A stretch of DNA of 64,000 nt. Source: Catalinimonas alkaloidigena. GTDB lineage: Bacteria > Bacteroidota > Bacteroidia > Cytophagales > Cyclobacteriaceae. Positions 21,391 to 59,198 of this stretch are shown here, piece by piece (position 1 is the first letter of the stretch; each line of letters opens with the position of its first letter). The stretch covers positions 687,001-751,000 of the forward strand of contig NZ_JAQFIL010000001.1 of assembly GCF_029504655.1 (NCBI RefSeq), read 5' to 3'. Position numbers and translations under genes: made by a program. The notes under the pieces are model-generated. The model saw nothing but the letters and a program-made list of their open reading frames with translations. It did not search any database and was not told the origin of the DNA.

Positions 21391-22233
21391 ATGAAGGACG
21401 TGAATGTGTTTTTATCGGTAGTAAGGCAAAAATTGGTCTTAAGAGGCTATAGTGTTAGTACCATTCAGGGTTACAGCCAAATGTTGCAACTCTTTGCCAA
21501 TAGCTTTCCTGAAAGAGAATTAAGTACTGTTTCAGAAGAAGAAATAAAAAACTTCCTGCTTCATCAGGTTTCAAGTAGAAACCTTTCTCGTTCTTATCAG
21601 AACCAAATGATTAATGCCATTAAATTCTACTATGAACATGTTTTAGGCAGGCCCAGAACCTATTATAATCTGGATAGACCTAGAAAAGTATTCCGTCTTC
21701 CTATCGTGCTTTCACCAACAGAAGTTAAAAACATTTTATCTCAGGTAGATAATCTCAAGCACCAAGCAATACTTCAGACAATTTATGGATGTGGCCTTCG
21801 CTTATCAGAACTTATTCATTTAAGAATTAAGGACATTGATTCCCAGAGGATGATTGTAATTATAAAACATGGTAAAGGTGCCAAGGATAGGATAGTACCT
21901 TTATCAGAAAAACTACTTAAACTTCTTAGAAGATACTATTTAGCTTATCGACCTAAGGAATATTTGTTTGAGGGACAATTTGGGGGAAAGTATGGTAAAA
22001 GTAGTGTCCAACAGATATTGAGAAGGGCAAGGAAAGCAGCTGGAATCCAGAAAAATGCTACAGTCCATACCTTAAGGCATAGTTATGCAACACACTTGCT
22101 GGAAGCTGGTACCGATTTACGGTATATACAGGTACTCTTGGGGCATAATAGCAGCAAAACTACTGAGATTTACACACACGTAAGTAGTACACATATCAAA
22201 AGAATAAGTTCTCCTCTGGATGCTATTACTTAG
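21391..22233 (+). CDS. Tyrosine recombinase of the cassette array (integron-integrase-like)
   Basis: A 280-aa tyrosine recombinase with Arg137 (GCGLRLSE), His226-Arg229 (HTLRHSYATH), His252 (LLGHNS) and nucleophile Tyr261 (EIYTHV). The ending SSPLDAIT resembles the RSPLDxL end of IntI enzymes. However, the stretch between the Lys-containing beta hairpin (HGKGAKDR) and HTLRH is only about 60 residues and lacks the extra IntI-specific helix that canonical integron integrases use to grip folded attC. It is transcribed in the same direction as the cassettes, 604 bp before the first junction. It is inferred to be the array's own recombinase because of position and lack of other candidates. Confidence 0.8.
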   Translation: MKDVNVFLSVVRQKLVLRGYSVSTIQGYSQMLQLFANSFPERELSTVSEEEIKNFLLHQVSSRNLSRSYQNQMINAIKFYYEHVLGRPRTYYNLDRPRKVFRLPIVLSPTEVKNILSQVDNLKHQAILQTIYGCGLRLSELIHLRIKDIDSQRMIVIIKHGKGAKDRIVPLSEKLLKLLRRYYLAYRPKEYLFEGQFGGKYGKSSVQQILRRARKAAGIQKNATVHTLRHSYATHLLEAGTDLRYIQVLLGHNSSKTTEIYTHVSSTHIKRISSPLDAIT

Positions 22234-22720
22234 TAAATGATTATCTTAGAGATTATCTATAAGTGAAACATGCACAATATGCATGTTCGGATGTTGATAG
22301 GCAATTCAATCATTTTCGGGGATCATTTTTCCTAATTTTGCCAGTAAGAAGATGGAGATTTCCTTCTGTAGGAGCGGGATGTATGTAGGGAGAAAATCTT
22401 TGATTTTGGCCCAAGTCTTCTGTCGGCTTTGCCGTTCAAACCGTGTTTGATGACGCTAAGACGTCAATGAAGACTTGAAGATAAAGAATTTAGATCAAAA
22501 TTGCTGGATAGACTTTATCGGAAACATACATTGGAGGGGGTCAGAAGGAAATAATGATACAAGATAAAGCTCTTTAGGCTTCTTACTGGCCCAATTTAGA
22601 CCACGAACGTCTATGCAGACATAAACATCATAGTCTAAATTTAAAATCAGGAAAAGGGAAGGAGCGGAGAAAATGATAGAACACCGTGCCCTACATGATA
22701 AAGATAAAAGGGGAGGCACT
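22234..22720 (+). other. Noncoding leader between recombinase and cassette array
   Basis: About 490 bp without a convincing gene. It contains an inverted repeat CAAGTCTTC (22412-22420) and GAAGACTTG (22469-22477) around a 48-base loop, and a small repeat TGCACAATATGCA near 22270. It may hold the promoter that drives the cassettes, which lack their own. It may also be the remnant of an older cassette whose ORF has decayed. Confidence 0.5.
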
Positions 22721-22843
22721 GCCTACAACATCCCGCTACCGGTCATACAACTATCAGGACGTAATAAAGCCAGCAAGATGAAGCAGAATATCTCATCAAA
22801 AAGTCACATCTTGCCTCTACGACCGGTAGCTATAACGTTATGT
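22721..22843 (+). other. Array entry site (attI or oldest attC, 'attC0')
   Basis: The sequence ends in G|TTATGTGC with the inferred crossover between 22837 and 22838, and cassette 1 begins at T22838. Unlike classical attI sites it is palindromic: arms GCTACCGGTC (22735-22744) and GACCGGTAGC (22821-22830) pair perfectly, and an R''-like GCCTACAAC lies at 22721-22729. It therefore looks like an attC used as the entry point, or a leftover cassette end. Confidence 0.7.
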
Positions 22844-22853
22844 GCAATTAGAA

Positions 22854-23240
22854 ATGAAAAAAACGGATTTTTTAACCAAGTTGATCTTTTCCAGACAATT
22901 AGTTTCTGTAATGAACAGAACTAAGTGGAAAGAATTAGCTGATGAGATGACCTCAAATCAAGATTTCAACCCTAAAGTCCGAATTAAATATCTAGAAGAT
23001 GAATTGCCATTAGGATTCAGCCATTTAGATTGGGAATGGGTAAAATTTGGCGACTCAAGAGTAATTGAATGGATGGAAATTGATTCAGTTAAAAGAGAAT
23101 ACGTTGGCCGACTCATTGATGACAAAGAAAAAGATTACAGTGAATGGATTAGAAAAAGACTAAAAGCTAATTCAATTCCATTTGATGAGAGCGATGGTAT
23201 TTTTCGGATTCTCGGTTATTTAAGCCCAACAAAAGAATAG
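22854..23240 (+). CDS. Cassette 1: DUF6678-like protein
   Basis: A 128-aa soluble protein resembling the DUF6678 family (MKKTDFLTK...MNRTKWKELADEM, FSHLDWEWVKFGDSRVIEWM). The function is unknown, though relatives turn up in cassette and accessory contexts. The ATG at 22854 is 16 bp after the crossover and is preferred over an upstream in-frame start at 22842. It has no visible promoter of its own; expression probably comes from the leader. Confidence 0.72.
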   Translation: MKKTDFLTKLIFSRQLVSVMNRTKWKELADEMTSNQDFNPKVRIKYLEDELPLGFSHLDWEWVKFGDSRVIEWMEIDSVKREYVGRLIDDKEKDYSEWIRKRLKANSIPFDESDGIFRILGYLSPTKE

Positions 23241-23247
23241 TGAAAAA

Positions 23248-23378
23248 GCACATAACAAAACGCAGCCATCAGCCTAGCCAAAATGAGCTTGAACATTCAT
23301 TGCTCCAAGCACGAAAAATGATAATTTGAAAGACAAACGCCAACTAGTCCGGCCGTTGGCTTGCGTTGGTCGTTGTAA
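23248..23378 (+). repeat. attC1
   Basis: R'' GCACATAAC (23248-23256) is the reverse complement of the cassette-1 start GTTATGTGC. The inner arms ACGCAGCCATCAGCC and GGCCGTTGGCTTGCGT pair imperfectly. R' is GTTGTAA with the crossover at G23372|T23373. The loop holds the shared TTGCTCCAAGCAC segment. Confidence 0.9.
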
Positions 23379-23383
23379 AACAT

Positions 23384-23779
23384 ATGAAAAAAGAATACTT
23401 CATATTTGTTTTTCTGATTTTTGGATTTACATGTGCTGACCAATCTTGTAATCTGAAAGACGGAAAATATAAAGTAGTTTACGATAAGCAATTTTCAGGT
23501 TATGCGGAATCAGAATTTGTAATTATAGATCAAACTTTGATTGAATTAAAGAATAACCAAAAATCTGAATACAAGATTAATTGGATTGCGGAAGACCAAT
23601 TTCGACTAGACCCGATTAATAAGGAAACAGATTCTTTGACAAGCATTCAAGAGGAATTGAACTCTTTGGGAGAGCCATATTATCAAATTACCGGATGCAA
23701 AGCTGGCGATATTATGTTTGAGTTTTACCGTAATCCACATATACTTATAAATTCTGGGAAACTAATTAGAAAAGATTAA
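23384..23779 (+). CDS. Cassette 2: secreted lipoprotein-like protein
   Basis: A 131-aa protein with a signal sequence ending in a possible lipobox (FIFVFLIFGFTCADQSC), so likely periplasmic or membrane-tethered. The remainder is beta-rich (KYKVVYDKQFSGYAESEFVI), similar in style to small Bacteroidota lipoproteins. The ATG at 23384 is 11 bp after the crossover. No specific function recognised. Confidence 0.68.
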   Translation: MKKEYFIFVFLIFGFTCADQSCNLKDGKYKVVYDKQFSGYAESEFVIIDQTLIELKNNQKSEYKINWIAEDQFRLDPINKETDSLTSIQEELNSLGEPYYQITGCKAGDIMFEFYRNPHILINSGKLIRKD

Positions 23780-23783
23780 ATAC

Positions 23784-23914
23784 GTTTTACAACATTATGC
23801 ATCGGTCAGCCCTATTTGAAACGCACCTGGGAGTTTATTGCTCCAAGCACCATTTTGATATTCGAACAGAAAACGCAAACAACGCCAGGCCGTCCGCTGC
23901 ATCGATCGTTAGCA
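23784..23914 (+). repeat. attC2
   Basis: R'' GTTTTACAAC (23784-23793) is the perfect reverse complement of the cassette-2 start GTTGTAAAAC. The arms ATGCATCGGTCAGCC and GGCCGTCCGCTGCAT pair imperfectly. The crossover is at G23908|T23909. Confidence 0.92.
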
Positions 23915-23926
23915 GGCACTTAAAAA

Positions 23927-24436
23927 ATGAGAGAATTAGATGATCCAATTTGGAAAGATTTGACTGGTGGATATCAAGTTCCTTATGATGCATCGGATGC
24001 TTTAAAGAGACTTGAAGCTTCTGCTGATGAAAAGGATGAGGAATTGATCTGGGAGGAACTCTGGAATGAATTGTATCATCAGGGAGACGTGGGAACAGCT
24101 TCTTTCTTAGCCATCCCCCAACTCGTTAGGATTTACAAGATAAAAAATAGAGCTTCTTATCATGTATTTGCTTTTATCACAACGATTGAATTAGTCAGGA
24201 TCAATGATTCAATTCATCTTCCGGATGAATTTAACAATGAATATGAAGAAGCTCTCGATCGGATTCCGGAATTGATTGATCTGATAAAAGATCAGATTTG
24301 GGATTCGGTATTGGCAGCCAGTGTATTATCAGCCACCGCGATTTGGAAGAAAAAGTATAAGATGGCGGAGCTGATAGCTGAATTAGAAGATGATAATTTG
24401 ACGGATTACTTATTGGATCAGATAAATGAATATTGA
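23927..24436 (+). CDS. Cassette 3: helical hypothetical protein
   Basis: A 169-aa very acidic, all-helical soluble protein (LWNELYHQGDVGTASFLAIP, LIDLIKDQIWDSVLAASVL). The repeated helix pattern recalls HEAT-like proteins, including some immunity proteins of polymorphic toxins. I cannot assign a family firmly. The stop codon is 4 bp before the R'' box of attC3. Confidence 0.65.
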   Translation: MRELDDPIWKDLTGGYQVPYDASDALKRLEASADEKDEELIWEELWNELYHQGDVGTASFLAIPQLVRIYKIKNRASYHVFAFITTIELVRINDSIHLPDEFNNEYEEALDRIPELIDLIKDQIWDSVLAASVLSATAIWKKKYKMAELIAELEDDNLTDYLLDQINEY

Positions 24437-24440
24437 AAGC

Positions 24441-24572
24441 GCCTGCTAACAGTATGCAGCGCCCAGCCCTGTTAAATAGCGATTGAAAGTCGATCGCCCT
24501 AAGCACTATTTTTGCAACTTGAAAGAAAAACGCAAACAAGACCAGGGCCGTGCTCTGCATCGGTCGTTGTAG
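24441..24572 (+). repeat. attC3
   Basis: R'' GCCTGCTAAC (24441-24450) is the perfect reverse complement of the cassette-3 start GTTAGCAGGC. The arms TATGCAGCGCCCAGCCC and GGGCCGTGCTCTGCAT pair imperfectly. The crossover is at G24566|T24567. Confidence 0.93.
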
Positions 24573-24584
24573 CCAATTTGAAAA

Positions 24585-24938
24585 ATGACAAAGCGACTTC
24601 TTTTAATGTTCCTAGTTTTAATTGGATTTTTAGTATTCTGGAATAATTTCTATCCGAGATTTTCAGTTGAGGGAGTTTATGTCAGTAACAATACCAGACC
24701 GATAATCGAAGGGCCGAAATCCATAGACACTTTGACAATTTACAGTAACGGGACTTTTGAAAACGGATCTTGGGGGAAAGGAGAATATTCAATTGACGGT
24801 GACCAAATTCACTTTGACATAACATACGACTATGGAAAATTTGGATTCAATACATATTTATCAAGAACATATTTTATAGGTTCACCGAAAATCCAATTGG
24901 ATTCAGATCTAGGGTTTTATTATGAAAAAATTAAATAA
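24585..24938 (+). CDS. Cassette 4: small membrane-anchored or secreted protein
   Basis: A 117-aa protein with an N-terminal hydrophobic helix (RLLLMFLVLIGFLVFWNNFY) acting as an anchor or signal. A beta-rich domain follows (IDTLTIYSNGTFENGSWGKG, YSIDGDQIHFDITYDYGKFG) of the kind found in small lipocalin-like Bacteroidota proteins. Start 18 bp after the crossover. Function unknown. Confidence 0.65.
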   Translation: MTKRLLLMFLVLIGFLVFWNNFYPRFSVEGVYVSNNTRPIIEGPKSIDTLTIYSNGTFENGSWGKGEYSIDGDQIHFDITYDYGKFGFNTYLSRTYFIGSPKIQLDSDLGFYYEKIK

Positions 24939-24945
24939 AAAAACT

Positions 24946-25074
24946 GGCTACAACAACACCTAAAGCTAATGCGGCCATTTCGTCTTCGGTAGACACTGAC
25001 ACGGTTGACGATGACGATCTCGGTTCTTTAGGAATTTACGGAAAGCCGCACTAGCTTTAGCCAAACCGTTCTAT
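24946..25074 (+). repeat. attC4
   Basis: R'' TGGCTACAAC (24946-24955) is the perfect reverse complement of the cassette-4 start GTTGTAGCCA. The arms AAAGCTAATGCGGC and GCCGCACTAGCTTT pair with one wobble. The loop differs from the common type. The crossover is at G25068|T25069. Confidence 0.92.
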
Positions 25075-25087
25075 GCCATTGAAATGA

Positions 25088-25669
25088 ATGAAAGGATTGA
25101 GAATAGAGATAAATGAAATTCCACTTCCCCAGAAGAGTTCAAAAATAGGAAGCCTATTCGGAGGAGGACTCTTGATTTTGATAGGTATCCTGTCACTTCC
25201 TTTGATTTTAATTTTTTGGATCGGTGGAATGATTATCAATCTCATCCCATCAAGAAAAGCAGTCACTGTTGCCAATGATTGGCAAACTATCGTTTCTGAT
25301 AACCATTGGATATTAAAATTTAGATGGATTAACGTGGATGATTTAGCAGATTATTTATACGGTTACTTTGATACTCAACCCTTAATTGAATATTGGTCCG
25401 ATCCTGAAATAGATTTCTTTCAAGGCTACTTTACGGATTTCAGATTAGAAAGAACGGATGGTATTTTTGTTCAGAAAGTAATCCACGATCCAGCAAACAA
25501 GGAAGTGCTGTCATTACCGGTATGTTTTTTCAGTTATCTAACGAAGGAGGTGGAAGAAATCAGAGACTTGAAGGATTATGAATTTGATACCAAAGGAAAT
25601 CCGGATGACTTCATGATTTCGGCCATTGGAGACGGACACGAACTACAGATTCGATTGAAAAGAGAGTGA
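25088..25669 (+). CDS. Cassette 5: membrane-associated hypothetical protein
   Basis: A 193-aa protein with a strongly hydrophobic N-terminal region at about 19-54 (FGGGLLILIGILSLPLILIF, WIGGMIINLIP) and a soluble, acidic C-terminal domain. No catalytic motif seen. The ATG at 25088 is 19 bp after the crossover; another ATG at 25084 is out of frame. Confidence 0.62.
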   Translation: MKGLRIEINEIPLPQKSSKIGSLFGGGLLILIGILSLPLILIFWIGGMIINLIPSRKAVTVANDWQTIVSDNHWILKFRWINVDDLADYLYGYFDTQPLIEYWSDPEIDFFQGYFTDFRLERTDGIFVQKVIHDPANKEVLSLPVCFFSYLTKEVEEIRDLKDYEFDTKGNPDDFMISAIGDGHELQIRLKRE

Positions 25670-25673
25670 AAGC

Positions 25674-25804
25674 GGCATAGAACATCGTGCAGCCCTCAGC
25701 CTAGCGATGATTAGCTAGATTGTCTGTTGCGCCAAGCAGGGAAATTGATACTCGTAAATTAAACTGCAAACAAGTCGGCCGAGGGCTCGCACTTGTCGTT
25801 ATAC
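25674..25804 (+). repeat. attC5
   Basis: R'' GGCATAGAAC (25674-25683) is the perfect reverse complement of the cassette-5 start GTTCTATGCC. The arms GTGCAGCCCTCAGCC and GGCCGAGGGCTCGCAC pair well. The crossover is at G25798|T25799. The loop contains TTGCGCCAAGCA. Confidence 0.93.
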
Positions 25805-25813
25805 CCAATTTAA

Positions 25814-26275
25814 ATGAGAAATGCGATCATACTTGATCTGGATGGAGTCTTGATCACGACACCGAAATGGAAAGCGGATGCAATACATGCTGATGGATAT
25901 TCAGATTTTAATCGGCATGCAGTAGATAACCTCAATTTGTTATTAAAAGATATCTCGGCTGAATTATGGTTAAGTTCAAGCCGAAGAATAGGAAAAACGA
26001 TGGATGAATTTAGGACCATATTTCATAATCGGGGAATAGAGAGTAACTTGATTGGATTTCTGCCAGGCGATGAACTAGGAATACAAAGGAAGATTGAGGT
26101 AACTAATTTCTTGGAAAATGAATCGTTCATAAACTTCTTGATCATTGATGATGATGCTTCCCTGCATGGATTGGAATTAGAAAAAAAGAAGTACTGGATA
26201 AGAACAGATCCCCATCTGGGATTTGATTCCAACAAATTAGATGAGGCGAAGGAAAAGATAAAAAACTGGGTATAA
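25814..26275 (+). CDS. Cassette 6: HAD-like protein
   Basis: A 153-aa small HAD-domain protein. Motif I is MRNAIILDLDGVLITTP (DxDGV), with a following serine-containing strand (AELWLSSSRR) and a possible motif IV (FLIIDDDASLHG). It is probably a phosphatase or phosphatase-like regulator. There is no cap domain of note. The stop codon lies inside the R'' box of attC6, a tight packing typical of integron cassettes. Confidence 0.75.
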   Translation: MRNAIILDLDGVLITTPKWKADAIHADGYSDFNRHAVDNLNLLLKDISAELWLSSSRRIGKTMDEFRTIFHNRGIESNLIGFLPGDELGIQRKIEVTNFLENESFINFLIIDDDASLHGLELEKKKYWIRTDPHLGFDSNKLDEAKEKIKNWV

Positions 26276-26397
26276 CACTGCTCAGCCCTCACCCTAGCAA
26301 TATAAATGCTAGAACATTAGTCGCTCTAAGTAGCGAAAATGATAAATGAAAGTAAAACAGCCAACAAGCCGGGCGACGGCTGCGCTTATCGTTGGCA
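26267..26397 (+). repeat. attC6
   Basis: R'' TGGGTATAAC (26267-26276) is the perfect reverse complement of the cassette-6 start GTTATACCCA and includes the stop codon of the cassette gene. The arms CTGCTCAGCCCTCACCC and GGGCGACGGCTGCGC pair imperfectly. The crossover is at G26391|T26392. Confidence 0.92.
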
Positions 26398-26410
26398 GTA
26401 ATTAGAAAAA

Positions 26411-28189
26411 ATGAAAATAACACTTAAAGCAGACCACAAGTCGATTAAAGAACGAATAGATTTTGAATTACCAAATTTTTCTGTTTTAACCGGTAAAAAT
26501 GGGAGCGGTAAAACTCATTTACTCGAAGCTCTTGCCAATAAAGATTTGACAGATGTAATTGTTAATGGGGCAAAAATTAAAAATGCAAGATATATTCCTT
26601 TCAACGGCCTAAACCCCAATATTCAGGAAAATTGCGATCCAGACACAATTACAAAGCATATAAAAAATGTTTGGAAAGAATATGAAAGAGCAAAAAATCA
26701 ATCAACCAGAAGAGGGCAGCAAAATGTAAACAATGAAACAGTTCTCAATCAAATTAATAACCAACATATACGGAAGCATTGTGCTAAAGCATTAGAAGAA
26801 ACTGGCAAAAATTATGATGTCCTCACAGAAGACGATTTACAAGACTCTTTTGACATTGCCTTTATGGGCCAAAATGATTTTTTTACGGCACAATTTGCAT
26901 TAATCTTTAAAAATTACCACAAACTTTGGCTCGAAAATCAAGAGAATAAATTTTACGAATCACAAGGTATCGCAACAACATCATCGGTTTTAACTGATGA
27001 GGAGTTTTTAAATAAGAATGGAGAACCACCATGGGAATTCGTGAATAAGATTTTAGAGGAAACAAGTATTCCCTATGAAGTAAATAGCCCAATGGGCAGT
27101 AGGAAAGACACTTCGTTCTCCTTTAAACTAAAGGATAAAGTGGAGGGTTTTGAAATTAGCTCTGCTAATCTTTCAACTGGTGAAAAGGTTTTAATGTCAT
27201 TAGCTTTGGCAATTTATAACACAGGTGGTGAACAAGGAAAACCTGAACTGTTGTTGATTGATGAGCCAGATGCTGCATTACACCCTTCAATGACAAAAAA
27301 GATGGTTGGTGTTTTAAAAAAGAATATTGTTGAAGAAAATAATATTCCAACAATAATAACCACTCATTCACCAACTACTGCTGTTGCGGCAGAAGGAATT
27401 TCTATTTATCAGCTTGAAAGAGGCAATAATAATCCTAAAAAAATACCCACACAGAAAGCTGTAGAGTTGTTATCAGGAGATATTCCGTTTTTAAAAATAT
27501 CAACAGAAAGAAGACGTCAAGTTTTTGTAGAAAGTAAATATGACGTAATCTACTATGAACTCTTGACTAACATTTATGGTCGTATAGAAACTTTCCCATC
27601 AGAACCAATTTATATTCCAGCAAGAACTTCTAATGGTTCTAATTGCACTGATGTTATAGAGGTTGTTAATAGTTTATTTTCTAATGGAAATGACCAGATT
27701 TATGGAATAATCGATTGGGATCTAAACAATCCTTCTACGAATAGAATTATTGTCCTTGGCGATGGTGAAAGGTATTCCATTGAAAATTATTTGCTAGATC
27801 CTTTATTAATGGGGATTCTGATGTTAAGAGAAAACAAAATCCCTGTAACTGATTTTGGAGCAATCAGTGTATCAAATTACCCCCAATTTGGACAATTGAC
27901 ACAAGGAGATGCTCAAGTCATAATAACTAAAGTATTAACTGATTTGGGATTACAATCCGCAAATACAGTGACCTATAAATCTTTTAATGGTTGGGAGTTA
28001 GAAGTTTCAGAAGAGTTTAATAAGCATCAAGGTCATGATCTAGAGCAGCTATATAAGTCAAAATATCCTTTTTTGAACTCTTACCAAAGAGAAGATGCTT
28101 TGAAGAAAGATGTGATTGAAAAAGTAATAAATGATTACCCTGACTTTGCACCAATTGCACTTAGTAAGGTAATAATGAAAATAATATAA
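26411..28189 (+). CDS. Cassette 7: AAA ATPase fused to a TOPRIM/DUF4435-like domain (putative defence)
   Basis: A 592-aa protein. The ATPase half has Walker A GKNGSGKT (28-35), an ABC-type signature LSTGEK (about 254) and Walker B LLLIDEPDA (about 280), with THSPTTAV following. The C-terminal half has FVESKYDVIYYELL (about 371), YGIIDWD (about 432) and RYSIENYLLDP (about 454), the pattern of TOPRIM-like DUF4435 domains. The combination resembles OLD nucleases and fused PARIS (AriA-AriB) proteins that protect against phage. It is the largest cassette gene. Defence is inferred from family resemblance. Confidence 0.75.
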   Translation: MKITLKADHKSIKERIDFELPNFSVLTGKNGSGKTHLLEALANKDLTDVIVNGAKIKNARYIPFNGLNPNIQENCDPDTITKHIKNVWKEYERAKNQSTRRGQQNVNNETVLNQINNQHIRKHCAKALEETGKNYDVLTEDDLQDSFDIAFMGQNDFFTAQFALIFKNYHKLWLENQENKFYESQGIATTSSVLTDEEFLNKNGEPPWEFVNKILEETSIPYEVNSPMGSRKDTSFSFKLKDKVEGFEISSANLSTGEKVLMSLALAIYNTGGEQGKPELLLIDEPDAALHPSMTKKMVGVLKKNIVEENNIPTIITTHSPTTAVAAEGISIYQLERGNNNPKKIPTQKAVELLSGDIPFLKISTERRRQVFVESKYDVIYYELLTNIYGRIETFPSEPIYIPARTSNGSNCTDVIEVVNSLFSNGNDQIYGIIDWDLNNPSTNRIIVLGDGERYSIENYLLDPLLMGILMLRENKIPVTDFGAISVSNYPQFGQLTQGDAQVIITKVLTDLGLQSANTVTYKSFNGWELEVSEEFNKHQGHDLEQLYKSKYPFLNSYQREDALKKDVIEKVINDYPDFAPIALSKVIMKII

Positions 28190-28191
28190 CA

Positions 28192-28254
28192 TACCGCCAA
28201 CAAAGTGTATAGTGCATACCCTGCGGGATACGCACCATACACAGAACGTTGTGG
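28192..28254 (+). repeat. attC7 (short, 63 bp)
   Basis: R'' TACCGCCAAC (28192-28201) matches the complement of the cassette-7 start GTTGGCAGTA with one mismatch. The arms GTGTATAGTGCATACCC and GGGATACGCACCATACAC form a near-perfect stem with a 3-base loop, the compact attC form. The crossover is at G28248|T28249. Confidence 0.92.
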
Positions 28255-28271
28255 TGCATTAAAATGAAACA

Positions 28272-28919
28272 GTGAAAACAAAGAAAATCCGCGGACATAA
28301 AAGAAGATGGAATGATATTGACCATTGGGTTGAAACTCATAAGAATCTCGACTTGGACTATTTGAAAGAATACCAAAGAGATTATGCGAAAATTCGAGTT
28401 CACCCTTGGAGCGGAATTTCTTTGACTAATAGCCAAACACCCGAACCAAAAGGACAAACAAAGACCAAAATTATAAGTGGACTTATTGAAATTTATGATT
28501 CTTGGAAAAGGGAATTGGACAAACTTGGCGAAAATTATTATTTGAGAATATGGCTCTTTGAACCAAGGTTTGCTAATTCTCAAGTTGTTTGCGCGATTGG
28601 AGACTATTTAGACTTTTATGAAAACACATTTTTCAAACCAGAAGATTCGAAGAAAATGAATCCCGAGAATTATGGAGCATTGAAAAATGAAATTGAAAAG
28701 TTTAATTGGGAATATAGGCTTGACGAAGATCACTTTGATAATAGTGAGCCAGGTGCTCCGGACTTATACGCAACGATGGCGGACTATGAAGAAAGCAAAA
28801 TGTATTTTAAAAAAATGCTAAAGAAACCGCACAGGACAACGAAATTTAAAGAACCGATTGGAGAAGCCACAGAATCATATTCATTTAAGAAAGGAGTTGT
28901 TTGGCTTGGAGAAAAATAA
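28272..28919 (+). CDS. Cassette 8: hypothetical protein, GTG start
   Basis: A 215-aa soluble protein (VKTKKIRGHKRRWNDIDHWV..., YYLRIWLFEPRFANSQVVCA) with no family I can name. The most upstream usable start is GTG at 28272. An ATG at 28264 is followed by only two codons and a stop overlapping the GTG, which may couple translation. It is rich in Lys, Trp and Tyr. No membrane segments. Confidence 0.65.
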   Translation: MKTKKIRGHKRRWNDIDHWVETHKNLDLDYLKEYQRDYAKIRVHPWSGISLTNSQTPEPKGQTKTKIISGLIEIYDSWKRELDKLGENYYLRIWLFEPRFANSQVVCAIGDYLDFYENTFFKPEDSKKMNPENYGALKNEIEKFNWEYRLDEDHFDNSEPGAPDLYATMADYEESKMYFKKMLKKPHRTTKFKEPIGEATESYSFKKGVVWLGEK

Positions 28920-28925
28920 AAAACG

Positions 28926-29126
28926 ACACCACAACAAGGTGTATAGCCAATAGTGCATTTAGAGATAAATTGAAAGTCCCGTTCTTTGAGCAGGCAGCGC
29001 CAAAACAAAGTTTTGACGTTTAACAAAAAAGAAAATTAAAAGTAAAAACGTTTGTTTTGGCTTTGTGGTAAACCGAAAGTGATTTGCTTTGAACCTGCCC
29101 TACTGTCCATACACAGAACGTTACAG
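28926..29126 (+). repeat. attC8 (long, about 200 bp)
   Basis: R'' ACACCACAAC (28926-28935) matches the complement of the cassette-8 start GTTGTGGTGC with one mismatch. The outer arms GGTGTATAGCC and GTCCATACACAGAACG pair imperfectly. The long loop holds a further inverted repeat (GCCAAAACAAA with TTTGTTTTGGC). The crossover is at G29120|T29121. Confidence 0.85.
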
Positions 29127-29138
29127 CCCATTATAAAA

Positions 29139-29630
29139 ATGATAATCACAGGACTGATAAAATTTACAATTGGATTAATAGGTTTACTATTGACGTTCGT
29201 TTATTTTATAGTTGCGGTAGCCAATAAGAACAAAAGAGAAAAATTCAAAACTGCAGCCAAGGTGTTCTTTTCAACAGCCGCTTTTGTGATAATAATCAGC
29301 GTGATTGAATTTTTAGTTTATCCTTCTAATAGTAAATCGAGTGAAATAATTTTGGAAGCATATCGTGAAGCTCCAATTGGTGGTATTTGGCTAGCCCTGT
29401 ATGAAGATAAAACATGGGAATTAGGCAATTCGTCGAGAGAAGTAAGGATAAAAGGTCAATATCAAATTTCTGGAGACACATTGATAATTATTGCTGATCA
29501 AGAAAATGAAATAAATGCTGATGTTAAAAGAACATTTGTTATTGATCGAGAAAGATTAATAGAAACTACTAAAACTGGCATTCATTCCTTGGAAATACTA
29601 ACTAACAAAATAAATGAAAACGGGCTGTAA
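29139..29630 (+). CDS. Cassette 9: small membrane protein
   Basis: A 163-aa protein with two N-terminal membrane helices (LIKFTIGLIGLLLTFVYFIV, VFFSTAAFVIIISVIEFLVY) and a beta-rich exposed domain (GGIWLALYEDKTWELGNSSR, IKGQYQISGDTLIIIADQEN). The ATG at 29139 is chosen because it is 18 bp after the crossover; an upstream in-frame start would lie in the attC. The stop codon is inside R'' of attC9. Confidence 0.65.
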   Translation: MIITGLIKFTIGLIGLLLTFVYFIVAVANKNKREKFKTAAKVFFSTAAFVIIISVIEFLVYPSNSKSSEIILEAYREAPIGGIWLALYEDKTWELGNSSREVRIKGQYQISGDTLIIIADQENEINADVKRTFVIDRERLIETTKTGIHSLEILTNKINENGL

Positions 29631-29690
29631 CATCGCTCAGCCACCATACTTCGGCTAAAGCCTTCGTCGTCGGCTGCGCAAACGTTATCT
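29622..29690 (+). repeat. attC9 (short)
   Basis: R'' GGGCTGTAAC (29622-29631) is the perfect reverse complement of the cassette-9 start GTTACAGCCC and overlaps the stop codon. An inner arm GCTCAGCC pairs with GGCTGCGC. The crossover is at G29684|T29685. Confidence 0.9.
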
Positions 29691-29721
29691 ACAAGGTAAA
29701 TATAATACAGAGAGAATTTTC

Positions 29722-30180
29722 ATGAAAAACCTGAATCTCGTTCTAATGCTCTTTCTGACAATATGCTGCCTAACAGTTAACGCACAAAATAAAGAAATCA
29801 CAGGTAAAGTGATTTGTTCAGACTTTCCTAGTAAGGATGATTCAACTGAACACGAATTTTGGAACGGGTCTGGAGCCGTGATATTTGGGAATGATTCAAT
29901 TCGATTGGGAACGGCAAACAATAACGGAGAATTTAAACTCTCAGTGACTGATAACATTCACTCAATCAGCGTTGGTTGGGTTGGCATGTACCCTGAAAAA
30001 ATTGAATTGACCGGCAATTGCAAATTTCTTGAAGTTATATTGCTACCTGACGTGATCTACGATTTTGTAACGTATAAAAAAGAACAAAGACTAAGAAAGA
30101 AGGATCGGAAGGTGCTTCCTGATTTGTACAGAAAAGCTTATGAACAAGGAATATTTAAAAATGAAGAACCCTGTAGATAA
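29722..30180 (+). CDS. Cassette 10: secreted carboxypeptidase-regulatory-like protein
   Basis: A 152-aa protein with a signal peptide (NLVLMLFLTICCLTVNAQ) and one CarboxypepD_reg-like beta-sandwich (EITGKVICSDFPSKDDSTEH, NNGEFKLSVTDNIHSISVGW). Such domains occur in Bacteroidota surface proteins. It ends in a basic region. The start is 37 bp from the crossover, the longest leader in the array. The stop overlaps R'' of attC10. Confidence 0.7.
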   Translation: MKNLNLVLMLFLTICCLTVNAQNKEITGKVICSDFPSKDDSTEHEFWNGSGAVIFGNDSIRLGTANNNGEFKLSVTDNIHSISVGWVGMYPEKIELTGNCKFLEVILLPDVIYDFVTYKKEQRLRKKDRKVLPDLYRKAYEQGIFKNEEPCR

Positions 30181-30305
30181 CATTGGCTAGCCACAACCGG
30201 GCGGAAATAAGTGCCTGAAAGCTAGTCGCTCCAACGGTAGAAAATTGTAAATTGAAAGAAAAATACCAACAAGGCCCGGTATGATGGCTAGCCTGGTCGT
30301 TATGT
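30172..30305 (+). repeat. attC10
   Basis: R'' TGTAGATAAC (30172-30181) is the perfect reverse complement of the cassette-10 start GTTATCTACA. The arms TGGCTAGCCACAACCGGGC and GCCCGGTATGATGGCTAGCC pair strongly. The crossover is at G30299|T30300. The loop contains GTCGCTCCAACGG. Confidence 0.93.
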
Positions 30306-30320
30306 GGCATTTAAAAAAAC

Positions 30321-31124
30321 ATGAGACAACTATTCATAATATTCACTTTGATTTCATTTAATGCTTGTTCACAGGACAAGCAGAAGAATGATATAGATGT
30401 AAATGAATTACCTGAAAGAATTCAATACATAAACAATCCTAACTCAAATGACACTCTCTGTATATCTGAAATTGAAAGAGCAAAAAAAGATATTGATAAT
30501 GGAAAGATTGTATTTACACAAAGTGCAGGGTTTCTTTTCGGAGACATTCGATATGAAAGAGAACTGAGAGAACTCTGCAAGGAAAATGGACTTGTATTTG
30601 ACTTTGATTTAATTGGTTGTGTTGTATTTGAAGGTCAAACTCAAGGTTGTTATGGAGATTACATGGATAAAATAATCATCGACAAATATGGAATTGACTT
30701 CAAAGAAAATCTTCATAAAGAAGCAGATAGTCTTTTTCTATCTCGGACACAATCAGAAAATAAACTTGTAGAATATTGGGATTGTGACGAAAGACCAAGA
30801 CTGCCGAATGAAACTAAAAGAACAAGTGATTACATTCCAAGTATAACTGTTGACAGTCTTGATATAATAGAGAAAAAAGGAAATTATGGTGGTTGGCCAT
30901 TCTTTGACCTAGGGTTTACTGTAGAAAAGGATAGTACAATTTCAGGGTTTTATTCTCGCAACTTTGTAGCTCAACTTGAAGAAAATGAAAAATATAAAAA
31001 CGAACTTTTTGAAATTGCTGTAACACACATAAAGAAGAAATACCCGACTTGGGTTCCTGGAAAAGTCAATGGTGTGCCAGTAAGGACAAAAAATAATGTT
31101 CGAATATTTATAAAAAAAGAATAA
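30321..31124 (+). CDS. Cassette 11: lipoprotein with TonB-C-like end
   Basis: A 267-aa protein with a lipoprotein signal (MRQLFIIFTLISFNACSQ, lipobox before Cys16). The C-terminus fits the TonB_C-like pattern seen in Bacteroidota (KKYPTWVPGKVNGVPVRTKN, then VRIFI). It probably acts in the periplasm. The stop codon is 5 bp before the R'' of attC11, which is split by a group II intron. Confidence 0.7.
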   Translation: MRQLFIIFTLISFNACSQDKQKNDIDVNELPERIQYINNPNSNDTLCISEIERAKKDIDNGKIVFTQSAGFLFGDIRYERELRELCKENGLVFDFDLIGCVVFEGQTQGCYGDYMDKIIIDKYGIDFKENLHKEADSLFLSRTQSENKLVEYWDCDERPRLPNETKRTSDYIPSITVDSLDIIEKKGNYGGWPFFDLGFTVEKDSTISGFYSRNFVAQLEENEKYKNELFEIAVTHIKKKYPTWVPGKVNGVPVRTKNNVRIFIKKE

Positions 31125-31137
31125 AAAACGCCACATA

Positions 31138-33064
31138 ATCGAGTAGACGGCTGACAGTCTCTGACTGCCAGTGCGCCTCTCACACCACCCGGCATACGGT
31201 CCTCGTACCGGGCGGTTCATTGAATTTCAGGACTGAGTTTCTGGTAATAGCTTGCCATCTGTTCATAACCTCTTTTTCTTAGGCGTGCAACAGTAATTGT
31301 AGTTCCAAGTATAGGGCTTTGGGCCACTGCCCATCCTCCCATATTGGTTCTGCTCCAGGCATAAGCCTGCCCTTGTTTTACGCCTAATCTAATGAGGTTT
31401 TTACGCTTTCTTTCCGGCTTTTTCCAATCATGCCATATGCAATACCTGAGGCGGTTTCTTAGCCATTCATCCAGTGATTTGAGCTTGGTATAAATACTTG
31501 CCAGTCGGTAGTTGTTTACCCAACCCCTGTACACTTCATTTATTTTGGCTATTCTTTCCTCAAAACTATAAGGCAGTGTTTTCTTGGTCATTGCCTTTAG
31601 TTTGCGCTTTAGACTTGCCCAACTGCTCTTCTTGGCAACCAGTTGATATCTACCTTTTTCTCCTTTACGGTAAGTTGGTACAAACCCATGACCTAGTAAT
31701 TCAAAGTCCGAAGGTCTACGTATACCGCTTTTTTCTGGGTTAATAGGTAAATCCAGCTTATCTCTTAGAAAGAGATATGTTTCGTTTCCTATCTTCCTTG
31801 CCTCCTCTTTTGTCTTAGCGTAAATACTAAAATCATCGGCATACCTGATGAACCGGTATCCTTTAGATTTCAGATGTTTATCCAGTTGGTCTAACAGTAT
31901 GTTAGATAAAAGGGGGCTTAGGGGACTTCCTTGTGGCATTCCTTTTCTGCGCTTATGAAGCTTCCCATTGATTAAAATAGGAGCCCGTAGCCACTTGCGG
32001 ATTAGCCATAAGGTAGTAGGGCATTTAACTTTGTTGTAGATGAGTTGCAGTAGCTTATAATGCTGGACTTCATCGAAGAAACTCTTCAGGTCTATATCCA
32101 CAATATCCTGATATCCATCATTGATGTGTATCAAGGATTTCTGGACTGTCTGATGAAGGTTCTTGTTAGGGCGGAAGCCATAGCTTTCTTCTTCAAAATC
32201 TAGTTCGAATTTGATTGCTAATTGTTGACTTACCGCCTGCTGAAGCCATCTGTCAACTACTGTGGGCACTCCCAGCAATCTGGTTTTGCCATTCCCTTTG
32301 GGTATCTCTACCCCTCTGATAGCTTGCGGTACATACGTCCTGTTCAGGATAGATGTCACCGTGGATACACGGTGGTAATCCAGGTATGAGCGTAGCTGAT
32401 CTACCTTCATGTCATCTACTCCTGGTGCCCCTTTATTACCTACCACTTTGCGGTAGGCTCTGTACAGGTTTTTCGGTTGTAGTACTTTTTCTATCATCTT
32501 TTGTTCTGTCCTTGTCCGCTTAAGGGAAAGCTATCTCGTCTTAAGACGACATTCTGACCCGAATTTGGACGCAATTCAATGTTCGGTCCTTCGCTGTTCT
32601 GTGAGACCTCAGGGGTATGGTATTCGCAATCCCTGCTCGTTCATCCAGCTACTATGACCTCTGTCGGCAGCCGACGCTGTGACTTCTCAGATATCTGTTA
32701 ATATCTGAGACCTCCCTCGGTAAGGTAAATACCCCGCGCCGCGTCGGCTTGTGCCTATTCCTGCTACATCTACTATTTCGGTGCTGGCCTCTTTCGAGGA
32801 GTTGGACTTCGGTATCATGTGCTACCTCATCCGACCTCATAGCCTCGGTATGTAGTTTCTGTTCGTCAGTACAGACACCGCAGTCTGGCCGCTCGGCGGT
32901 CCGATTACTTCAGTTCCAGAGTCACCTCTGACAACCTTGCCGCTTGCTTAGCTTGGGGTAACGACTCCCCCGCCTACGGGACTATTTCCTGGTGAACATT
33001 ACACCAGAACTTTCACCCTTTGGGACGTCCTTTTAAAGAACTATATTTACCATTCAAGGCACAC
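31138..33064 (-). mobile_element. Group II intron 1 with reverse transcriptase, inserted in attC11 R''
   Basis: On the minus strand the intron begins GTGTGCC (33064 down to 33058) and ends ...CTCGAT (31138), i.e. a terminal AY. Domain V is visible at about 31170-31215 (GAACCGCCCGG...CCGGGTGG on the minus strand). Removing 31138-33064 joins GCCACATA to ACAAAGC, restoring R'' GCCACATAAC, the exact complement of the cassette-11 start GTTATGTGGC. The intron-encoded protein lacks a C-terminal HNH domain, and the target is an attC, as known for group IIC-attC introns. Confidence 0.9.
31217..32497 (-). CDS. ltrA: Group II intron reverse transcriptase/maturase
   Basis: A 426-aa intron-encoded protein. 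RT motifs include GVEIPKGNGKTRLLG, DIDLKSFFDEV, GMPQGSPLSPLLSNI and the catalytic YADD (IRYADDFSIY). The C-terminal maturase domain X (GIIM) is present (RGWVNNYRLASIYTKL, IRLGVKQGQAYAWSRT). No HNH endonuclease domain follows, which fits class C introns that insert at hairpins. It lies in domain IV of intron 1, within 80 bp of domain V. Reading frame intact; the intron may be active. Confidence 0.93.
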   Translation of the reverse strand: MIEKVLQPKNLYRAYRKVVGNKGAPGVDDMKVDQLRSYLDYHRVSTVTSILNRTYVPQAIRGVEIPKGNGKTRLLGVPTVVDRWLQQAVSQQLAIKFELDFEEESYGFRPNKNLHQTVQKSLIHINDGYQDIVDIDLKSFFDEVQHYKLLQLIYNKVKCPTTLWLIRKWLRAPILINGKLHKRRKGMPQGSPLSPLLSNILLDQLDKHLKSKGYRFIRYADDFSIYAKTKEEARKIGNETYLFLRDKLDLPINPEKSGIRRPSDFELLGHGFVPTYRKGEKGRYQLVAKKSSWASLKRKLKAMTKKTLPYSFEERIAKINEVYRGWVNNYRLASIYTKLKSLDEWLRNRLRYCIWHDWKKPERKRKNLIRLGVKQGQAYAWSRTNMGGWAVAQSPILGTTITVARLRKRGYEQMASYYQKLSPEIQ

Positions 33065-33189
33065 ACAAAGCATATAGCTTATGGCGGGTGAACGGCTGCC
33101 AGCATGGTTTTCGCTCCGTAGCCAGCTTTGGTTTCGCGGGACAGGAAAGTGCTTCGAAACCGCCACAAGCCATATGCAAACCGTTAGTG
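33065..33189 (+). repeat. attC11, interrupted by two group II introns
   Basis: The site runs from R'' (GCCACATA at 31130-31137 plus AC at 33065-33066) to R' (GTTA at 33183-33186 plus TGC at 34024-34026). The arms GCATATAGCTTATGGCGG (33070-33087) and CCGCCACAAGCCATATGC pair over 18 positions with two G-T wobbles. The crossover is at G33183|T33184. Introns occupy both core boxes, one on each strand. Confidence 0.9.
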
Positions 33190-34023
33190 CGCCACGAAGT
33201 GGTGCCATTCCAGTGGGTGAAAATCCCCCCAAGGTAATTGACTGTTCACCTTGAAGAAAAACAAACAGTCATGCCCGTGAGGGTATTGCTGAAGCTTTGT
33301 TCTTTCAAATAATCAAGCTGTAATGCGCAAGCGTGGGGGCGGCCCCCCGCAACCCATAGTAGCTTCGAGAGGTGTACCCGTAGTTTGGGGAGAGTGTTAA
33401 CGGTGTCTGCGAGACCCGCTTGAACCCTGCCATACTAAGAGGATTAACAGTCACAAGAATCTTAGTAAACTGCCGGAGTCCTAGGGATAGCGTGATTATA
33501 GATGGAATGGGATTAAACGTGGGAGATCTGATTTTCTGTAAGATAGCCACTTACAACTCTCTGCTATAAGTATAACGAAGTGCAGAAGGGGGAAGGTCAG
33601 AAGTCGGAGGGGCACATAGTACTGTAGATGACAGAGACAACAAAACTCTGTTGGAGGGAAGGTGCCCTACTTTGAAAGCGCTCATATAATTCATTGATAG
33701 TTGATACTGGCTTAGTCCTATACGGTTAACCTTCTTGCTTGTCAAGTCGAATGTGTCAGATGAGATTAAAAGGAGCTATAGTTTGAGCCAAATATGGGGA
33801 TACAAGTTGAGGGGTGTTATAGCTAAATACCAAAACCGAAACTTGTAGACATGTATGCACGCTTAAACCTGAATTTCATCGGTAAGCCGGGGCGGCCCCG
33901 CCGGATGAGGGAAAACTTCAAGTCCGGTTTGATGAAGGTCGCCATGAAATGGGGTCACTGATAGTCTACAGAATTTGCTATCTTTTAGTAAGTTTAACGG
34001 TGGGCTATCAGGGCCTACTCTAC
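33187..34023 (+). mobile_element. Group II intron 2, ORF-less, inserted in attC11 R'
   Basis: It starts GTGCGCCACGAAGTGG at 33187, with the conserved TTCCAGTGGGTGAAAATCCC nearby, and ends ...CCTACTCTAC at 34023. Domain V is at about 33898-33935 (GCCGGATGAGGGAAAAC, then AAGTCCGGT). Excision joins CCGTTA to TGCAGC, restoring GTTATGCAGC, the exact complement of the cassette-12 R'' GCTGCATAAC. It encodes no protein, so splicing or mobility would need a maturase in trans. Domain V differs from that of intron 1, so it is not a deleted copy of it. Confidence 0.88.
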
Positions 34024-34044
34024 TGCAGCAGTAAAAAAAAGAAT

Positions 34045-34638
34045 TTGAAAACTATTCCGACCATATTACTTATTTTGATGTTCTGTGCTTCATTTGCAGT
34101 TGCTCAGACCGATTCAAAAAAATTATGGATTTCTGGTAAGGTAAAAGTATTAGCAGGTTTGGAAGTTGTAGATCCTTTGGATGCATTCGCAGAAATAGAA
34201 CAACTTCATAAACTTGAACTGATTGATCCTCTTGGAAGATTCAGATTTGATTATTTAATGCCTGGAGATTATAAGATCAAAATACATGGTCTGGGTTACT
34301 CAACTTTGGATACCTTAATTAGCATTCGAAAGGAATCTGTCAAAGATTTACAATTATTGATTGTAGCCGATTGCGAGGTAAGCCGAAAAATGGCTGAATT
34401 AGACATTAAAAACGGTAAACCGAATTTACTACTCATCGGTGGTATTGCACCTGTAGTCTATATGGATCAATACAAATTTGAGGAGAAATATGATATAGAA
34501 TATAAGGATTATGGTTGTACCCCACCGGCTCAGGAATGTGTAGAACAATACAATAAAAGAATCTTCGAGCATTTGGACTCACGATACGGTAAATCATGGA
34601 GAAAGAAAGTGAGAAAGGATGTTATTGGATTGAAATAA
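34045..34638 (+). CDS. Cassette 12: secreted protein, TTG start
   Basis: A 197-aa protein with a signal peptide (KTIPTILLILMFCASFAVAQ) followed by a CarboxypepD_reg-like beta domain (LWISGKVKVLAGLEVVDPLD, RFRFDYLMPGDYKIKIHGLG) and a basic C-terminus. An ATG at 33949 is in frame but lies inside intron 2. After intron removal the first start that gives a proper signal peptide is TTG at 34045, 24 bases after the restored crossover, as in other cassettes. Function unknown. Confidence 0.68.
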   Translation: MKTIPTILLILMFCASFAVAQTDSKKLWISGKVKVLAGLEVVDPLDAFAEIEQLHKLELIDPLGRFRFDYLMPGDYKIKIHGLGYSTLDTLISIRKESVKDLQLLIVADCEVSRKMAELDIKNGKPNLLLIGGIAPVVYMDQYKFEEKYDIEYKDYGCTPPAQECVEQYNKRIFEHLDSRYGKSWRKKVRKDVIGLK

Positions 34639-34646
34639 AGGAAACC

Positions 34647-34777
34647 GCTGCATAACATCGGGCAGCCTTCAGCCTGGCATCAGTGAGCCTGAACATTTAT
34701 CGCTCCAAGCACGGAAATTGATAACTGAAAGATACATGCAAACAATCTCGGCCGTCGGCTCGCCCTGGTCGTAGAAT
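34647..34777 (+). repeat. attC12, last site, degenerate R'
   Basis: R'' GCTGCATAAC (34647-34656) complements the intron-free cassette-12 start. The arms GGGCAGCCTTCAGCC and GGCCGTCGGCTCGCCC pair well, and the loop has ATCGCTCCAAGCACGG. The terminal box reads GTAGAAT instead of GTTxxxx, so the array probably ends here. Just beyond, AATGCTTCA and TTGAAGCATT (34775-34817) form another inverted repeat. Confidence 0.85.
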
Positions 34778-38572: not shown

Positions 38573-38802
38573 AGACGCAACTCCCTGGCTCTCCACTAGC
38601 ATATTTTATAAGTTTCATGGGGAGGTCGAGGTGTCTAGTAACTTGGTTATTTTACCAAGTTACTATCAGGGTAGTTTTATTGTCTAACTGTGGTGTAATT
38701 AGATAGCACATCCATATCTAAATGGAAGGTCCTGGGGCAGAGCCAGGCAGCATTATTTCTCATAGATATTACAAGGTTTACACTTCACAAAACTTTGATA
38801 AA

Positions 38803-41370: not shown

Positions 41371-41527
41371 AATTCAAGAAGTGCAATAGACATTATTTTG
41401 AATGACTAAGAGATCAAACCAGTAACAATTCCTTTTCTTTTTAGCATCGTTACATCAAACGAGCACAAACTATCCTAAATCACATCCAGCTAACCCGGTA
41501 CACCTACCTTGCTCTCAAAAATAGGCA

Positions 41528-42301
41528 ATGCTGGAATCGATAGGTTTTTCAGGGGCACAGGCAGAAAGCAAAGCAGAAATAGAAGCGATGATCCGCAGAA
41601 AAAATGCTGCGGGGGAATTGTATTCTGAAGAAGAAAAAGCTTTACTCCGTGAATATGAAGGTGCTGGTGGTATCTCCGATGCTGAGGATGAATATGCAGG
41701 GGCAGCAGATGAGTTCTATACTCCGGATTTCCTTATTGAAATCATGTGGGATTTGGCTAAGCATTATGGCTTTCCTCAGGATGGCAAAGCACTGGAACCT
41801 TCATGTGGTACCGGAAGATTCTTTGACCATGCACCTGATCAGGTAAAACTATATGGAATGGAGATTAATCCTATCAGTTTTCGGATTGCCCAAATACTGC
41901 ACCCCCAAGCAACCCTTTACAACCAATATTTTGAAACGCTCTTTTTAGAACCCCCACGCTACACCACCAAAGCCAGCAAACCCTGGTTAAGAGAATTTGA
42001 ATTGATTATTGGCAATCCTCCCTATGGCACCCACTTAGGACCTTACGCCAGTTACTTTAACACCAAGCCAAGGCATCATACCATTGAGAATTTCTTCCTG
42101 TACTATGGGTTGAAACTCCTTAAAAAGAATGGCCTAATCGTGTTCCTGACTTCTTCTAATTTCCTGCGCAATGGAGATAAGTATAAGGAGATCAAACAAG
42201 CTATGGGTAAGGTAGCAAATCTGGTGGATGCTTACCGACTACCGGCAGTATTTAGAAATTCCAGCGTACCTACCGACATTCTGGTGCTTAAAAAACTATA
42301 A
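41528..42301 (+). CDS. N6-adenine DNA methyltransferase (DarB-like N-terminal part)
   Basis: A 257-aa class I methyltransferase. Motif I is LEPSCGTGRFFD (about 90) and the catalytic motif IV is IIGNPPYG (about 160), specific for adenine-N6 methylation. An upstream LREYEGAGG resembles the LxxYTGxGGL motif of phage DarB/ICE-type methylase-helicase proteins. No target-recognition domain is evident. It is 2 bp before a 71-aa gene and in an operon with a giant helicase, so the pair likely modifies the element's DNA or protects it from host restriction. Confidence 0.85.
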   Translation: MLESIGFSGAQAESKAEIEAMIRRKNAAGELYSEEEKALLREYEGAGGISDAEDEYAGAADEFYTPDFLIEIMWDLAKHYGFPQDGKALEPSCGTGRFFDHAPDQVKLYGMEINPISFRIAQILHPQATLYNQYFETLFLEPPRYTTKASKPWLREFELIIGNPPYGTHLGPYASYFNTKPRHHTIENFFLYYGLKLLKKNGLIVFLTSSNFLRNGDKYKEIKQAMGKVANLVDAYRLPAVFRNSSVPTDILVLKKL

Positions 42302-42303
42302 CC

Positions 42304-59119: not shown

Positions 59120-59153
59120 AATAGATTTATTTCTCTCATATTGCCCCGAAAAT

Positions 59154-59198
59154 TGGTCACTAATAGATAGTGAGGTCACTGAAAGGGTCACTGGTCAC
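59154..59198. promoter_or_regulatory. Arm-type integrase binding sites
   Basis: GGTCACT occurs four times in direct orientation (59154, 59173, 59185 and 59192), between the attachment core and the integrase start. A single further copy at 3569-3575 lies just inside the other end. Direct repeats on both sides of a core are the usual arm-site pattern of tyrosine integrases. Confidence 0.7.

Follow-up and report, generated by a model that had tools for sequence, protein, structure and literature searches.

In a 64,000-nucleotide stretch of the Catalinimonas alkaloidigena genome (hereafter the window, which is part of contig C1; the genome measures 7.9 Mb in three contigs), we found a tandem array of 13 gene cassettes at positions 22293-34770, lying directly behind a co-oriented gene for a tyrosine recombinase. 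Judging from its sequence, this array is probably an integron run by the neighbouring recombinase, an enzyme that lacks the I2 insertion specific to the known integron integrase IntI; strand choice at the attC sites of such an integron would be conveyed by G.T wobbles. The novelty lies in the integrase.

The cassettes were delimited by reading the sequence and by scoring each cassette start against the R'' boxes (Table 1). As a first-pass annotation made from the sequence alone had described, they carry co-oriented short genes with G/TT junctions and palindromic sites, and the complementarity between a cassette start and its R'' box differs from cassette to cassette. The twelve cassettes counted there become 13 with the addition of one at 22293-22836, ahead of the cassette then taken as the first, and its nine perfect start/R'' pairs out of twelve had to be revised. 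On rescoring, seven of the 11 scorable pairs match at all ten bases and the other four (cassettes 1, 7, 8 and 11) differ at a single base; the pair of cassette 11 was read by eye, its scored row standing two bases off. For cassette 0 the pair has to be offset by one base to fit (5 of 10 bases agree otherwise), and that of cassette 12 could not be scored because a group II intron breaks the start of this cassette. The last junction (34771) is degenerate (GTAGAAT).

A chain finder that links a cassette start, its R'' box and the following junction returned a chain of nine in the window; the start with which this chain opens falls within the recombinase gene and matches by chance, while the site itself is attC0. 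Among 60 dinucleotide shuffles of the same 18 kb, the longest chain was one in 45 cases, two in 14 and three in a single case. As in a canonical integron, the cassettes of the window stand in tandem with attC sites between them whose R'' and R' boxes are complementary, and we take the array to be real, its attC sites being upheld both by this chain test and by the cassettes shared with other arrays (see below). The description of the array as integron-like in the first-pass annotation is likewise strengthened by the identical and near-identical cassettes found elsewhere in the genome. Most of the cassette genes are of unrecognised kind, the ones that could be named encoding a DUF6678 protein, a HAD RNA-repair domain and a defence-like ATPase. 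A simple palindrome scan was dropped: it gave 13 plus-strand matches, some of them far outside the array, and missed several true sites.

The gene of the tyrosine recombinase, which did not figure in the first-pass annotation, points the same way as the array and lies 60 bp upstream of the first cassette. Its product scores 233 bits against TIGR02249, the integron-integrase model (cut-off 265), in a match of two parts that cover positions 1-176 and 240-314 of 315, and it passes NF040815, a model named site-specific tyrosine recombinase/integron integrase (224 bits, cut-off 220). The best match among solved structures is Vibrio IntI4 (2a3v, 145 bits), split around I2, followed by archaeal XerA (4a8e, 142 bits); the closest named relatives are Catalinimonas proteins with 82% and 74% identity. 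We aligned 128 recombinase rows, having set aside six truncated or frameshifted canonical rows and one row of a second type of recombinase. In clade A, the group of the window recombinase, the span from patch II to the HxLRH motif is 64-69 residues in every one of the 85 rows, as against 102-111 in 35 canonical IntI rows; three XerD-like rows have 72 residues there, and the five rows of the second type have 66-68. The additional I2 domain that characterises canonical integron integrases is absent from the window recombinase. The presumed catalytic residues are invariant in 47 aligned rows.

In a tree of 67 rows rooted on Xer, for which most group-A loci were thinned to every third, clade A forms one group (96/85) and IntI another (100/100), and clade A therefore does not fall inside the sampled IntI. 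One second-type recombinase (B_L135) adjoins clade A (89/87). The grouping suggests that clade A sits beside the known IntI family. One of the genome's own recombinases (L009, C1:1791950-1792750) is part of a 519-amino-acid open frame that is much extended at the N-terminus; homologues of 360-480 amino acids are numerous, some of them with PF07443.

The pairing of recombinase and array recurs in the same genome. An attC model built from seven window sites (R1; in its structure one pair is a column out, 7-126 for 7-127) was run over the whole genome, 150 of 1909 candidates being scored. It gave 35 matches at E<=0.1 and 31 at E<=1e-8, seven of the latter being the training sites. All 31 fall in four clusters, and three weaker matches lie outside them (E 8e-6, 0.004 and 0.016). 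No protein of this genome, and hence no IntI, scores above the TIGR02249 cut-off, and the four best-scoring places each lie directly upstream of, and co-oriented with, one attC cluster. The three other recombinases are 56-61% identical to that of the window.

Cassettes are shared between these arrays at exact borders. Two cassettes together (window 23370-24569) recur with 100% identity on contig C3, as does window 25792-26393 with 99.8%; window 28245-29122 has a 100% copy in the array at 5.31 Mb, where cassette 0 is also present (98.9%). The shared blocks start and end at G/TT, with the hairpin behind the gene, which is the canonical polarity. This comparison indicates an exchange of cassettes between the genome's four arrays and is indirect evidence for recombination that depends on the integrase.

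R1 also matched in six of the 59 genomes of a sample of relatives, the genome under study counted in, and in two of these (G002 and G026) a clade-A recombinase stands directly before attC sites. A 2.4 kb repeat lies within arrays, opposite to the cassettes (L011:15331-17724 and L014:13699-16108). It contains a second-type tyrosine recombinase and an open reading frame that by eye resembles an IS91-type transposase; related copies occur in G001 and G002, and an IS110-like open reading frame (by eye) is found alongside.

To look further afield we took the 80 best homologues in public genomes, 73 of which bear a Bacteroidota taxon name (assigned by eye). R1 found no match at these 80 loci, being specific to the lineage of the window, and the start/R'' chain finder was therefore used for them. 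Counts refer to the 39 loci with at least 1.5 kb downstream; L082 and L083, which have a premature stop, were left out here and from the comparison of attC arms below. The upstream controls were equal in length to the downstream DNA, save at L048, L052 and L091, where they were shorter because the contig began there. Chains of at least three cassettes are present downstream at 19 of the 39 loci and upstream at none; for chains of at least two the figures are 28 and none, and a cassette start lies within 260 bp past the stop at 33. A clade-A homologue (E<=1e-55) is present in 146 of 295 sampled genomes of the class, and a canonical IntI above cut-off in 1 of 295. Across the phylum, canonical IntI exceeds the cut-off in 105 of 395 genomes, G095 being the only one of the class among the matches listed.

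The point at which cassettes enter can be proposed from two arrays of the genome. The integrase genes of the 5.31 Mb array and the C3 array are alike (92.8% over 1.5 kb), and behind the integrase stop the two are identical but for one base up to TTCGGAT, after which differing cassettes start with GTT; this stretch is taken as attI. By this comparison an attI adjoins the integrase as in canonical integrons, with the cassette junction 60 bp past the stop. A palindrome often stands before the first junction: its score is at least 9 at 22 of 76 loci, compared with 2 of 228 control places. At 19 of 32 loci the highest-scoring palindrome falls at the first junction itself.

A similar layout was seen on pHH1107 (FJ012881.1; L195:3543-5564), where a remnant of a clade-A-like recombinase (tpnF, 56% identity) precedes tet(X3), and a palindrome with a G/TT start (GTTATGTGCC) before this gene resembles an attI with its first cassette. 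The 5' side thus looks right; a matching R'' box was sought behind tet(X3) and none was found, and we make no claim that this gene is a cassette.

The attC sites of the window fall into long ones (about 120-131 bp, with one of 198) and short ones (60 and 66 bp). Their L'' and L' arms covary, 7 of 11 predicted pairs on seven aligned sites having both sides changed with pairing kept. For a wider comparison of arms we used 147 unique sites from 34 clade-A arrays and 59 sites from 13 canonical arrays of the same phylum, the canonical arrays being oriented as divergent from IntI in an earlier set and later, for about half, by the strand of their matches to R2, a model of canonical attC built from 14 sites. 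An extra base on the left (L'') arm, the feature that I2 reads, occurs in 34 of the 147 clade-A sites as against 52 of the 59 canonical ones (15 and 46 with a stiffer gap cost). In the window, one of 12 aligned sites has extra bases on this arm, and the extra-helical L'' bases of canonical attC sites are not a feature of the array. The converse idea of an extra base on the L' arm, that is, of reversed polarity, was dropped because only 38 of the 147 clade-A sites have one and because the shared blocks are cut at G/TT after the hairpin.

What clade-A sites do have is a strongly one-sided set of mismatches. Bottom-strand G.T pairs, which are A.C on the top strand, outnumber the reverse 200 to 21, compared with 10 to 9 in canonical sites. 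Counted by array, this polarity holds in 29 clade-A arrays and is reversed in none, the other 5 being tied; under the stiffer gap cost the three figures are 30, 1 and 3. The polarised mismatches cluster 15 and 10 bases behind AAC on the left arm (88 and 35 cases, in 117 sites). The bottom strand is predicted to fold better in 112 of 152 natural clade-A sites (38 opposite, 2 ties; by array 27 to 7), the corresponding figures for canonical sites being 33 of 70 and, by array, 5 to 8.

When R2 was run on 12 canonical-IntI loci, 8 of them yielded matches, 31 in all; ten of these were in L200, from which one of the 14 sites had come, and there were none in L197, L210, L212 and L214. Since the chain finder detects arrays in L197 and L214, the sensitivity of R2 is limited. 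On 16 clade-A sources it gave four weak matches, none of them at the window sites. The check by covariance models that the first-pass annotation had suggested thus comes out divided: our own canonical model, limited as it is, recognises no window site, yet it also passes over two canonical arrays.

We propose that the recombinase inserts cassettes at a palindromic attI about 60 bp past its own stop, at G/TT, and may also recombine attC with attC, by which cassettes would be shuffled among the four arrays. The attC sites would fold as bottom-strand hairpins. In the absence of an I2 in which extra-helical bases could dock, the strand would be marked by G.T wobbles at set positions: being A.C mismatches on the top strand, they would let the bottom strand fold better and so fix the orientation without I2. 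We infer this role of the wobbles, like catalysis by the window recombinase and single-strand folding in the cell, from the arrangement and polarity described above.

The main rival to the wobble mechanism is a double-strand route, which we hold to be unlikely. Here the recombinase would use double-stranded sites like dif, and the asymmetry of the arms would be base-specific recognition that sets orientation, with no single-strand folding. Xer relatives act on double strands, the recombinase has no I2, and the palindromic attI recalls a two-arm core site; yet transitions between the arms almost all spare bottom-strand pairing (A/G 161 and C/T 4, against T/C 14 and G/A 1), the sites retain long imperfect hairpins with variable loops, and L'' covaries with L'. 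Somewhat less probable again is that the polarised mismatches are a mutational footprint, for instance of deamination of exposed single strands, and not a functional code. Transitions do make up 180 of 255 mismatches, but the mismatches sit at fixed places in the left arm, and canonical sites of the same phylum are free of such polarity.

Several observations weigh against an integron run by a clade-A recombinase and strand marking by wobbles. In the tree, the branch that unites clade A and B_L135 with IntI has weak support (84/78). When 89 whole loci were shuffled, 21 gave a chain of two and 2 a chain of three, and upstream DNA of up to 10 kb from all 80 loci gives chains of two in 10 and never of three; chains of two by themselves therefore prove little, unlike chains of at least three. 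Another 20 loci, chosen for long contigs among class matches with 42-52% identity, formed a poorer sample: 6 of them have chains of at least three, as do 8 of 100 shuffles, and in 10 of 20 a cassette starts no more than 260 bp past the stop, so that sequence similarity alone is no guarantee of an array and many homologues have none nearby. The array of G001 (G001:C1:4574152-4583388) has no intact clade-A recombinase adjoining it; its second-type recombinases are opposed to its direction, and some 3.7 kb upstream there is a recombinase fragment with an internal stop. In G026 the longest array reaches the contig end without a clade-A recombinase, and in G002, of the same genus, single attC sites are scattered along the chromosome, far apart and outside arrays. 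In 7 of the 34 clade-A arrays, more than half of the sites have the left-arm extra base (3 of 34 with the stiffer gap cost). Host Xer proteins could in principle assist the reaction.

That the array is a relic of a canonical IntI, lost or acting from elsewhere, beside an unrelated Xer-type recombinase, is improbable: the I2-bearing integrases are the only integron integrases described in the relevant portions of PMC9668308, PMC7790495 and PMC2426708, many homologues lack arrays and the G001 array lacks an intact clade-A neighbour, but IntI is missing above cut-off from this genome and from all but one of the sampled genomes of the class, recombinase and array are paired in four cases out of four at home and at 19 of 39 other loci chains of three or more follow the recombinase (none upstream), and attI junctions lie directly behind the recombinase gene.

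An integron with a clade-A integrase, which we prefer, shares with canonical integrons the cassette array, the R''/L''/L'/R' layout of attC, the G/TT crossover, the attI by the integrase and the sharing of cassettes between arrays. It differs in the integrase without I2, in attC sites that mostly lack left-arm extra bases and carry polarised wobbles, and in an attI behind the 3' end of a co-oriented integrase gene. The co-orientation is not unique, as IntI and the attC matches share one direction at two canonical loci, L199 and L205, as well. With XerA, XerC and XerD the window recombinase has in common the fold family, the lack of I2 and a passing score in NF040815; it differs from them in belonging to a separate clade, in an IntI-like SPLD end (by eye) and in its array context. 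A search based on the IntI domain would be expected to call such an array, were its sites seen, a CALIN (a cluster of attC sites without an integron integrase); unlike a CALIN, the window array has an integrase-like gene beside it.

This sets the window apart from integrons as they are currently described. In the passages of PMC7790495 (eLife 2020) concerned with I2, this domain is needed for cassette capture, its deletion abolishes IntI1 function, and the I2 helix is seen as the innovation that lets a tyrosine recombinase use single-stranded attC. The definition of integrons given in PMC9668308 (Science Advances 2022) uses the IntI-specific domain, which IntegronFinder is said there to require, and the selection described in the 2008 survey PMC2426708 was made on the same domain. 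For Bacteroidetes, the section of PMC9024848 (IntegronFinder 2.0) on distribution gives previously only In0, and it adds a single complete integron, that of Salinibacter ruber, to those of Chlorobi and Ignavibacteriae; a passage of the review PMC8618304 names Bacteroidota among integron carriers. Our literature search, which did not extend to subscription papers and preprints, found no report of Bacteroidota integrons without the I2 domain among the entries listed.

Two group II introns lie in the array (Table 1). They are like group II introns of the IIC-attC type in that they are inserted in attC sites of the array, a likeness that refers to the place of insertion. The intron of attC11 has a 98.4% copy of 31179-33067, as well as more distant copies, in other arrays, and the intron region of cassette 12 (33182-34023) has a 99.6% copy in L010.

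The array is contained in a larger element at whose two ends, at 3494 and 59270, the last 20 bp of the tRNA-Leu 3' end are repeated. Together with the adjacent integrase, this repeat bears out the tRNA-integrated element of the first-pass annotation, and an integrase at a tRNA with flanking repeats is a trait shared with prophages. The further suggestion that the element is prophage- or virus-like finds less support. Among 30 open reading frames scanned with PHROGs, which represent part of the element, we found an endolysin, weak lysis matches including a spanin, one weak virion-protein match and helicase families, and no terminase, portal or major capsid protein, so that a prophage is not established. 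Further along, window 38722-47003 encodes a helicase (PADLOC PDC-S28, 358 bits), an N6-methyltransferase and a 1495-amino-acid SNF2-like helicase, and is possibly a defence or antirestriction island.

Table 1. Cassettes of the array and associated features, in window coordinates (aa, amino acids)
Feature	Position	Strand	Remarks
Tyrosine recombinase (280 aa), proposed integrase of the array	21391-22233	+	without the IntI-specific I2 insertion
Proposed attI	22234-22295	+	short palindrome (ACATGCA...TGCATGT), then G/TT junction at 22293
Cassette 0	22293-22836	+	no convincing gene; attC0 22723-22843 (arms); 98.9% copy in other array, L012:5424-4857
Cassette 1	22837-23371	+	DUF6678 protein; attC1 23250-23378
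Cassette 2	23372-23907	+	small lipoprotein-like protein (by eye); attC2 23787-23914; further copies on contig C3
Cassette 3	23908-24565	+	169-aa protein; attC3 24444-24572; together with cassette 2 100% identical to contig C3
Cassette 4	24566-25067	+	117-aa protein; attC4 24948-25074
Cassette 5	25068-25797	+	193-aa membrane protein (by eye); attC5 25677-25804
Cassette 6	25798-26390	+	HAD_SAK_2 (RNA-repair HAD domain); attC6 26270-26397; 99.8% copy on C3
Cassette 7	26391-28247	+	AAA ATPase (592 aa), resembling those of several defence systems; short attC7 28195-28254
Cassette 8	28248-29119	+	215-aa protein; attC8 28929-29126; 100% copy in other array (L012)
Cassette 9	29120-29683	+	membrane protein (by eye); short attC9 29625-29690
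Cassette 10	29684-30298	+	secreted 152-aa protein (by eye); attC10 30175-30305
Cassette 11	30299-33182	+	267-aa lipoprotein-like protein (by eye); attC R'' box split by group II intron
Group II intron with reverse transcriptase (31217-32497)	31139-33066	-	antisense in attC11; TIGR04416 353 bits, Rfam RF02001; ends approximate
Cassette 12	33183-34770	+	start broken by group II intron; gene 33949-34638; attC12 34650-34777
Group II intron without reverse transcriptase gene	~33187-33947	+	start of cassette 12; Rfam RF02003
Integrase next to tRNA-Leu (59270-59354)	57950-59191	-	probably of the larger element 3494-59289

We see about an even chance that clade A represents a second great lineage of integrons, common in Bacteroidia and sister to all sampled IntI, whose integrases never had I2 and whose attC sites carry a bottom-strand G.T wobble code. 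If this is true, the capture of cassettes through folded attC hairpins would predate I2, contrary to the view that the gain of I2 made integrons possible, and a natural integrase without I2, with matching changes in its attC sites, would make the origin of integrons testable. It would also uncover a reservoir of cassettes in Bacteroidota, given a homologue in 146 of the 295 class genomes and chains of at least three cassettes at 6 of 20 such loci sampled.

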